64,000 nucleotides of DNA from Alphaproteobacteria bacterium (GTDB taxonomy: Bacteria; Pseudomonadota; Alphaproteobacteria; JAUHZY01): positions 1,274,834 through 1,338,833 of the forward strand of contig JAUHZY010000001.1 of NCBI GenBank assembly GCA_030425825.1. Direction: 5' to 3'. The translations under genes and the position numbers were made by a program. Each line of letters opens with the position of its first letter. Positions within the stretch are counted from its first letter, which is position 1. The notes below the pieces were generated by a model. That model had not been told where the DNA came from, ran no database searches, and worked only from the letters and a program-made list of their open reading frames with translations. This document shows positions 33,944-58,533 of this stretch, piece after piece.

Positions 33944-34828
33944 TTAAGGCCAAATAACGTTTGGTGGCAAGGACATAAGTATCGCCTCTGTGTTCCCACC
34001 TGTTTTCAAGCCAAATTCAGTCCCACGATCATAGAGAAGGTTAAACTCAACATAACGCCCACGCTTAATAAGCTGCGCACGTTTTTCTTCCTCTGTCCAT
34101 TGTTGTGCCGCACGACGGCGTACAATTTCAGAAAATGTTCTTTTAAATGTTTTGCCAACATCACGTGTAAAAGAAAAGTCTTTATCAAAATCGCCACTGT
34201 CTATGTAATCATAGAAAATACCACCAACGCCACGTGGTTCTTCTCTGTGTGGAAGATAAAAATATTGATCACACCATTCTTTGAAACGTGTGTAGTAATT
34301 GGGATCATATTTATTACACATCACTTCTAAGGCGCCATGAAAAGCTTCTGTGTCTTCATCATAAAGATGTGTTGGCGTCAAATCCATGCCGCCACCAAAC
34401 CAAGCCTTAGATGTTATAATATAGCGTGTATTCATGTGAACAGACGGAACATGTGGGTTAAACATGTGTGCAACCAAAGAAACGCCTGCCGCCCAAAATT
34501 GTGGATTTTCTTCTGCGCCTGGAATTTTGTGCCTAAACTCTTCCGAGAACTTGCCTTCAACAACAGATATGTTCACACCAACTTTTTCAAAAACACGGCC
34601 ATGCATAATCGACATCACACCACCGCCGCCTTCTGAACCGTCTTCGTTTTGACGCTCCCAAGACTTTTGTTCAAAACGCCCCGTAGATGCTGGTTGCTCG
34701 GCGCCCAATCCTGGACCCGTTACAGCCTTAAACTCATCTTCAATAGCTTCAAACTCTTGACAAATGTCATCACGAATTTCTTTAAACCATTCTGACGCCA
34801 ATTTTTTTCGTTCTTCAAGCTGTGGCAT
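33944..34828 (-). CDS. hemF: Oxygen-dependent coproporphyrinogen III oxidase
   Basis: HemF makes protoporphyrinogen IX by two oxidative decarboxylations, the aerobic route to heme. Landmarks include [54 protein letters not shown] and [19 protein letters not shown]. The frame is open to 34843 from TTG, but ATG 34828 has GGGAG just upstream (294 residues). Heme is needed for cytochromes b and c1, encoded two genes away on the other strand; the clustering is typical for alphaproteobacteria. The stop is followed by a strong terminator. Confidence 0.96.
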
Positions 34829-56517: not shown

Positions 56518-57855
56518 ATGCAAATAACAGAATTAAAAAATGAAGGCTTGGAGAGGGAATTTAAAGTTGTTGTTCCATCAAAAGATATGGAAACAAAAAT
56601 TAATGAAGAACTAATGAAACTTGGAAAAACAGTAAAAGTTTCTGGTTTCCGCCAAGGTAAAGTTCCTTTGGAAGTATTACGTCAGAAATATATTTCAAAT
56701 GTCGTTCCTGACGTTGTCCGCAATGTTCTAAACGAAACAGCAGATAGCGTTCTAAAAGAAAAAGATCTGAAGCCTGTCATGCAGCCAAATGTTGAAATTA
56801 CATCTTTTGATGAAGGACAAGACCTAGAATACAAAATGTCTTTTGAAATTGTTCCTGATATTAAGCTTGCTGATTTTTCAAAAATAACACTTGAGAAACT
56901 CAAAGCTGAGGTAACGAAGGAAAGCATCGAAGAAGGTTTGAAGCTTATCGCAAACCAACAAAAAACATCTCAAGAACTTAAAACGGCGCGCCCTGCCCAA
57001 CAAGGCGACACTGTTGTCATGGACTTTGTTGGAAAAGTTGATGGTGAAGTTTTTGAAGGTGGAACAGCAGATGATTTCTCTATCGAAATTGGTTCCAAAG
57101 GTCTGATTGACACTTTTGAAGACCAACTTGTTGGCCTCAATGTTGGTGACACAAAGCTTGTCAAAGTCACTTTTCCTGAAGAGTATGGCAATGCTGAACT
57201 CGCTAATAAAAAAGCAACCTTTGATGTAACAGTGAAAGATATTCGCGAAACGGTTCCTGTAAACCTTGATGATGAATTTGCAAAATCTCTAGGCTTTGAA
57301 TCGCTTGAAGCGCTTAGCAAGACATTTGAAGAAAAAATGGAAGCTGATTACGAGAATGCCTCAAAGCAAAAGCTGAAGGTAAAACTTTTGGAAGAGCTGG
57401 ACAAAAAGCACAAGTTTGATCTGCCAAAAACAGCTGTTATGGCTGAGTTTAACAACATGGCACATCAAAACCACCCCGACCTTCACAAGCATGATCATGA
57501 TCATGACCACCAAAAAGGTGAGCATGACCACACGAAAGATCTGCCCAAAGATAAAGTTGATGAGTACATGAAAGAAGCTGAACGCCAGGTAAAGCTTGGC
57601 CTTGTCTTGTCAGAAGTGGGTCGCGTTAACGACATTAAAATTGACCAAAACCGCGTGCAGCAGGCAATTATGCAAGAAGCACAACGTTTTCAAGGGCAAG
57701 AGCAGAAAGTTTTCGATTACTATCGCAACAACCCAGATGCAGCTATGAGATTACAGATGCCTATTCTAGAGGATCAAGTAATGGAATTCATCTTGGAAAA
57801 ATGTGAAACGACAGATAAGGTTGTATCTGTAGATGATCTTTTCAAAGCTGAATAA
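56518..57855 (+). CDS. tig: Trigger factor with a histidine-rich insertion
   Basis: Trigger factor is the ribosome-bound chaperone and prolyl isomerase. The ribosome-binding loop GFRQGKVP is at 43-50. The FKBP-type domain (about 160-245) has QQGDTVVMDFVGKVDGEVFEGG and GLIDTFEDQLVGL. The rest is the helical chaperone domain. At length 445 it is normal, but residues 316-338 carry nine histidines in 23 residues (HKHDHDHDHQKGEHDH), looking like a metal-binding loop not seen in E. coli TF. It starts the tig-clpP pair, with AGAAGG upstream of ATG 56518. Confidence 0.95.
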   Translation: MQITELKNEGLEREFKVVVPSKDMETKINEELMKLGKTVKVSGFRQGKVPLEVLRQKYISNVVPDVVRNVLNETADSVLKEKDLKPVMQPNVEITSFDEGQDLEYKMSFEIVPDIKLADFSKITLEKLKAEVTKESIEEGLKLIANQQKTSQELKTARPAQQGDTVVMDFVGKVDGEVFEGGTADDFSIEIGSKGLIDTFEDQLVGLNVGDTKLVKVTFPEEYGNAELANKKATFDVTVKDIRETVPVNLDDEFAKSLGFESLEALSKTFEEKMEADYENASKQKLKVKLLEELDKKHKFDLPKTAVMAEFNNMAHQNHPDLHKHDHDHDHQKGEHDHTKDLPKDKVDEYMKEAERQVKLGLVLSEVGRVNDIKIDQNRVQQAIMQEAQRFQGQEQKVFDYYRNNPDAAMRLQMPILEDQVMEFILEKCETTDKVVSVDDLFKAE

Positions 57856-57885: not shown

Positions 57886-58533
57886 ATGAGTGATATTCAA
57901 GATACTTTTACAAATACACTGGTGCCGATGGTTGTTGAACAAACTGCACGCGGCGAAAGATCCTACGATATCTACTCACGTCTTTTAAAAGAACGTATTA
58001 TTTTTCTAACGGGTGGTGTCAATGACAACATTTCTAGCTTAATATGCGCACAACTCCTCTTCCTTGAGTCAGAAGACCCTAAAAAAGATATTTATTTCTA
58101 CATTAATTCTCCTGGTGGCGTTGTAACTTCGGGGATGGCAATGTATGACACGATGCAATTTATTAAACCAGATGTCTCGACTCTTTGTATTGGACAGGCA
58201 TGCTCTATGGGGTCTTTACTTCTAACAGCGGGAACTGCAGGAAAGCGTTTTGCACTACCGAACTCACGCATCATGATTCACCAGCCTTCAGGCGGTGCAC
58301 GCGGACAGGCTTCTGATATTGAGATTCAAGCACGTGAAATCTTAAAGCTACGCGAAAAACTCAATCAGGTTTATGTCAATCACACAGGCCGCAAGCTGAA
58401 AGAAATTGAAAAAGCTATGGACCGTGACAACTTTATGTCTGCCGAGGAAGCTAAAAAGTTCGGCTTGATTGATGAAGTGATTGATAAGCGCCCGAACGAA
58501 GAAGACGAAAGCAACACAAAAGGCAAAAAATAG
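57886..58533 (+). CDS. clpP: ATP-dependent Clp protease proteolytic subunit
   Basis: ClpP is the serine protease barrel that works with ClpX or ClpA. The 215-residue protein has the catalytic S107 ([14 protein letters not shown]) and H132 ([10 protein letters not shown]), and the aspartate in [34 protein letters not shown] upstream of ATG 57886 supports the start. It follows tig after 30 bases, as in most bacteria, but clpX, normally next, is missing: the next gene is mrdA on the other strand. ClpX must therefore be elsewhere in the genome. Confidence 0.97.

Follow-up and report, generated by a model that had tools for sequence, protein, structure and literature searches.

The trigger factor (TF) encoded in the window, that is, in the whole stretch of 64,000 nucleotides that was analysed, carries nine histidines at the predicted tip of Arm1 of its substrate-binding domain. 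Judged by sequence comparison, this cluster exemplifies a feature that recurs in the TFs of alphaproteobacteria, and the original prediction had understated it. We lean towards the view that such a disordered, His/Asp-rich Arm1 tip loop would bind several transition-metal ions weakly and reversibly, and would chelate or buffer them beside the emerging chain.

By all sequence tests made, the window protein is a trigger factor. The tig gene (56518..57855, forward strand) is an open reading frame of 445 aa, and its assignment is based on an AlphaFold model and on all three Pfam domains. These are arranged in the order of bacterial trigger factors and all score above their cut-offs: the ribosome-binding domain Trigger_N (PF05697, residues 1-142, 56518..56943, 5.2e-36), the FKBP-type prolyl isomerase domain FKBP_C (PF00254, residues 158-239, 56989..57234, 1.9e-16) and the substrate-binding domain Trigger_C (PF05698, residues 262-427, 57301..57798, 1.1e-31), all on the forward strand. 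In the 1.95-Mb genome Trigger_C gave a single match, which is Tig, and the one FKBP_C match found was Tig as well. Residues 43-50 of Tig read GFRQGKVP and fit GFRxGxxP, which we take to be the ribosome-binding signature of bacterial trigger factor; G43, F44, R45, G47, K48 and P50 did not vary across 49 aligned rows. Immediately 3' of tig lies clpP (57886..58533, forward strand, Pfam CLP_protease 2.5e-88), which is the usual gene order. The AlphaFold model of window Tig aligned with E. coli TF (1w26) with a Z of 24.7 over 423 residues (rmsd 13.3). An Rfam search of the window matched no RNA element, and a scan for promoters and terminators around tig gave nothing above shuffled sequence.

The nine histidines were found exactly where they had been placed by the original prediction, at Tig residues 316-338 (codons 57463..57531, forward strand). 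They occupy positions 316, 319, 323, 325, 327, 329, 331, 336 and 338, and residues 323-331 read HKHDHDHDH, a run of the HxHxHxH type that had been described. The loop contains 4 HD units only. By a binomial estimate, the chance of at least nine His per 23 residues is about 1e-13 at the His share of TF cores (0.82%) and 3e-10 at a share of 2%. The AlphaFold model, built with 49 aligned proteins, had a mean pLDDT of 92.3, with block means of 62 and 58 across residues 321-340 and flanks of 88-96. In this model Arm1 helix 1 (residues 304-318, 57427..57471), which contains H316, is followed by the tip loop (residues 319-343, 57472..57546) and by Arm1 helix 2 (residues 344-370, 57547..57627), all on the forward strand. 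The cluster had correctly been located to the helical chaperone domain; the insert itself is modelled not as helix but as a low-confidence loop that joins two confident helices. Alignment with 1w26 along residues 1-442 bore out that E. coli TF has no such insert. Its matching loop, which starts after about E. coli residue 320, has no His and is shorter by 10 + 3 residues. Arm1 is given as residues 302-360 of E. coli TF in PMC5722895, and the window loop falls at the Arm1 tip by this numbering. Simulations reported in PMC4626277 show unfolded chains in strong contact with residues 320-325 of E. coli Arm1, in agreement with NMR and fluorescence work cited there.

Trigger factors were gathered from 58 relatives, of which 54 gave a match, from 387 class genomes, of which 373 did, and from 80 named loci, and pattern matches were added. 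The relatives all belong to the same class as the window genome and lie outside its family and order. About 156 places were listed from the 373 class genomes with a TF, so that coverage was uneven, and 100 regions were picked from the listed places and the relatives, with a preference for long matches and a wide range of families. Of the tip loops from 275 unmasked genomes or records, 108 held at least 4 His, 25 held 2-3 and 142 held 0-1. This sample is enriched for His-rich cases, since many loci were found by a His pattern, and 108/275 is therefore not a prevalence. Histidine made up 18.2% of the His-rich loops in these 275, 0.82% of the TF cores minus the loop and 0.08% of the His-poor loops. 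Alphaproteobacterial tip loops are bimodal rather than graded: they either have almost no His or contain between 4 and 25, in many cases as (His-Asp)n. Cut at identical anchors, the usual loop is an acidic linker of 36 aa, and the longest HD runs, which reach 25 His, come from one and the same genome (L143, L263). The 195 G genomes with loops fall into 89 family codes, and in 16 of these codes loops with at least five His were present.

A DNA pattern of HDH with the TF helix anchor after it matched 46/387 class genomes. Thirty-eight of these matches, from 16 family codes, read as TF and the other 8 did not lie in TF; TF status was taken from translated loops where these were fetched and by eye for the remainder. 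The 38 are a lower bound, since the TF of the window, with AERQV, escapes the pattern. As a control, the reversed pattern matched 9/387 class genomes. Outside the class, the HDH-anchor pattern matched 8 of 236 Pseudomonadota genomes (counted from listed kinship in a phylum sample of 397), none of them in a TF by eye. Cysteine was also more frequent in His-rich loops (0.21% of 4348 residues) than in His-poor loops (0.02% of 5151). It stands alongside His in the tip loops of L213, L301, L242, L243 and L297, and in three of the eight Cys-bearing His-rich loops (L112, L113, L190) it is found on a helix and not within the His run.

Several single loops were recorded on the way. The TF of L297, from a 0.9-Mb genome (G070), has a tip loop with HDHAHAHCNGDCGADH, in which Cys and His together resemble a compact zinc site. 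In L236 (G036) a long stretch of the Arm1 tip is masked and DHDHDH comes after it; this insert may exceed 100 residues considerably. The TFs of L023, L026, L158 and L216 have HQFEHE-type stretches near the end of Arm1 helix 1 and no loop cluster, possibly a minimal form. In sphingomonad TFs this part of Arm1 helix 1 reads EHEASHEE.

The clearest conservation was observed in Rhodobacterales, whose named loci had been picked without regard to the loop. Here the loop reads EAxQIAHQLWHEENPDVxGHDHxEIExTDEH or close variants. AHQL[W/Y]H was present in 46/80 named loci, and no locus assigned to Paracoccaceae or Roseobacteraceae lacked it. In the 45 named loops of equal length all five His were kept (45/45), while the other columns from position 11 on averaged 77% identity; in the 46th locus, L102, the loop is a little longer and reads HDAQEDVDQHDHSHGE. 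When pattern-drawn loci were added, four of the His columns were constant in 71/71 and the fifth in 70/71. The CAC/CAT counts at the five His were 23/22, 34/11, 25/20, 38/7 and 35/10, which indicates that synonymous change continued while the residue stayed. An AlphaFold model of a Ruegeria TF (mean pLDDT 88.3) has helices at residues 306-324 and 340-362. By alignment numbering its His are 318 and 322, four apart at the end of helix 1, 331 and 333 in the loop and 342 at the start of helix 2, a modelled layout that could close around one metal. The survey of related species that the original prediction had called for thus found neither an insert confined to a few strains nor unconserved histidines, but a loop shared by many alphaproteobacteria with His fixed in Rhodobacterales.

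The distribution on trees is scattered. The state of at least five His requires at least 12 changes on a FastTree of 249 TFs computed with the loop excluded, and 11 on a quick IQ-TREE of 62 rows. In the FastTree support is poor for many deep branches, and the window TF is the only member of a long branch. A single origin, with the 14 His-rich rows as one clade, was rejected by the AU test (p 1e-121, 62 rows) for this group, which was chosen by the trait. Both states also occur inside families f35, f109 and f16. Together, the changes on the trees and the mixed states within families show repeated gain or loss of the loop at one and the same site. Such turnover could be neutral: the Arm1 tip would be an unconstrained linker in which CAYGAY repeats expand and shrink by slippage and the His have no function. 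The wide variation in loop length and His number and the low confidence of the loop in the AlphaFold model fit this reading, as does one genus (g95) in which L131 has 18 His and L186 has none, with QQQQ at the site, at a core identity of 71.6%. We nevertheless consider it unlikely, because five His are fixed in the named loops of Rhodobacterales, where CAC and CAT both occur, and because the loops are bimodal. The repeats themselves were also analysed. In 24 loops with at least 4 HD units both codons of each residue are common (CAC 182, CAT 170; GAC 168, GAT 150), and identical neighbouring units numbered 38/148, compared with 38.2 in within-array shuffles. Since neighbouring units resemble each other no more than shuffled ones, an origin of the arrays by recent slippage was rejected. 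Pooled over the 275 loops, the arrays vary at Asp sites and not at His sites: x is Asp in 108/130 HDHxHDH contexts and His in 84/84 DHDxDHD contexts (Fisher p 1e-5). As related arrays are not independent, one array per family was also counted (11 families), giving 59/64 versus 49/49, which is not significant (p 0.068) and leaves some room for neutral growth. The pooled arrays favour selection on His, and the signal is weak in the one-per-family count.

Selection on the loop need not involve a metal. A His/Asp polyampholyte could instead act as a pH- or charge-dependent contact that tunes the grip on substrate or the head-to-tail TF dimer, in which the arm tips lie on the partner's ribosome-binding domain. 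Residues at the arm tips of E. coli TF, including 323, 331, 335 and 336, are reported to shift when the ribosome-binding domain, their contact in the dimer, is added (PMC5722895). His-poor loops are strongly charged too (Asp 10.7%, Glu 21.0%, Lys 10.1%), so that a charged tip is the common state. For such a contact Lys or Arg would do equally well, yet Rhodobacterales keep His while most other charged columns of the loop vary, and some loops place Cys beside His; a purely electrostatic role therefore seems doubtful to us. Delivery of nickel to hydrogenase or urease, in the manner of HypB, UreE or SlyD, would be a metal role of another kind. It draws on the likeness of the TF middle domain to SlyD, an FKBP isomerase described in PMC7055735 with a Ni- and Zn-binding His-rich tail. 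Urease was found at E < 1e-30 in 23/37 genomes with a His loop and in 19/43 His-poor genomes, but this difference is not significant (Fisher p 0.12, kinship ignored), and the clear hydrogenase matches, in G035 and G332 and more weakly in G361 and G091, all fell in His-poor genomes. In the window genome (G000) urease alpha (PF00449) had no match and NiFe-hydrogenase (PF00374) reached 18.9 bits only, below the cut-off of 25.8. For the window organism we regard nickel delivery as very improbable, and the resemblance to the nickel chaperones HypB and UreE that had been put forward in the original prediction was not supported here.

Zinc appears the likelier metal for the window loop, by its likeness to other HxHxHxH proteins of zinc uptake. 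The HxHxHxH DNA pattern had 29 matches in the window genome, all inside stretches that were translated. Convincing proteins among them were TF, ZnuA (L304) and an ABC ATPase (L303), and the remainder lay in short or low-complexity frames (L312). The ABC ATPase gene is adjoined by a FUR-family gene and by a second His-rich ZnuA. Of the suggestion that zinc or nickel might be bound, the metal part is favoured by the recurrence, the fixed His and the Cys of some loops, and zinc by the likeness to ZnuA, all of these being sequence comparisons, while the nickel part was not upheld.

The same loci gave further observations. The two ZnuA paralogues, both His-rich, are encoded at separate loci of one 1.95-Mb genome (L304:1489-2433 and L303:1420-2400). 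At L312 (around G000:C2:916136) one strand has a repetitive frame rich in proline together with low-complexity frames rich in His; a single repetitive gene read out of frame is the probable explanation. At L303:1366-1380 (G000:C2:158822-158836), between the FUR-family gene, which is Zur-like by its place, and the His-rich znuA, lies the perfect palindrome TGTTATACTATAACA, a likely Zur operator. Control of tig by Zur was considered and rejected: the palindrome had no match near tig, and the window had 2 matches with up to 3 mismatches where 3.5 were expected. One of the sequences seen in the window, TGTTATAATATAGCG at 34412-34426, is 2 mismatches from the palindrome and not above chance.

In the reading that we favour, weak metal binding by the tip loop, the bound ion would most likely be Zn2+ in the window organism and perhaps Cu+ or Ni2+ in other organisms. 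The loop lies where Arm1 meets unfolded chains, and from this position it would chelate or buffer metal next to the nascent polypeptide. Nascent chains bearing Cys or His would in this way be kept from bridging or mis-metallation until they are folded. The 142 of 275 loops without a cluster belong to cells that do without it. E. coli lacking tig or dnaK is reported to be highly copper-sensitive, and Cu+ to aggregate proteins enriched in Cys and His (PMC9040851). This result concerns a TF whose Arm1 has no His loop, and by analogy a chelating tip may be a natural refinement of the role of TF under copper. A further reading, to which we give little credence, is that the Arm1 tip was repeatedly made metal-responsive in alphaproteobacteria, so that metal switches TF between dimer store and ribosome, or that zinc is handed to nascent metalloproteins and TF acts as a ribosome-bound metallochaperone. 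A metal-binding element on the exit-site chaperone would bring metal handling to the point at which proteins are made, which bears on the wider question of how and when cytosolic proteins acquire the right metal and avoid the wrong one. The five-His form occurs in genera with cultured strains, for example Ruegeria and Sulfitobacter. In the open-access literature, judged mostly from listings and with subscription papers outside the coverage, we recognized no description of a His-rich TF loop.

Among known systems, E. coli TF (1w26) shares with window Tig the three domains, the fold and the class of ribosome-associated chaperones, and differs in an Arm1 tip that is shorter and has no His cluster. 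HypB and UreE have folds unrelated to trigger factor; they have His-rich segments in common with window Tig, and their client nickel enzymes were not found in the window genome. ZnuA is a periplasmic solute-binding protein, again of unrelated fold. Its His-rich loop has HxHxHxH and HDH runs as in Tig, and both ZnuA of the window genome carry His-rich stretches. SlyD is, like Tig, a chaperone with a disordered His-rich segment, which in SlyD binds metal; according to PMC7055735, up to seven Ni are bound by E. coli SlyD, and the H. pylori SlyD tail also binds Zn. The FKBP domain of window Tig aligned with SlyD (3cgm) with a Z of 11.7 and an rmsd of 1.8 over 84 residues; a SlyD-like fold for the whole of Tig was rejected, since SlyD chains align to this domain only. 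SlyD carries its His in a C-terminal tail and has its chaperone domain inserted in the flap, whereas Tig has three domains and its His in the Arm1 tip. The C-terminus of window Tig reads SVDDLFKAE, with no His-rich tail, and the cluster lies inside Trigger_C. Since the window genome has no second FKBP besides TF, SlyD was not found there. Though Tig is no SlyD, its loop would, by analogy, work like the SlyD tail.
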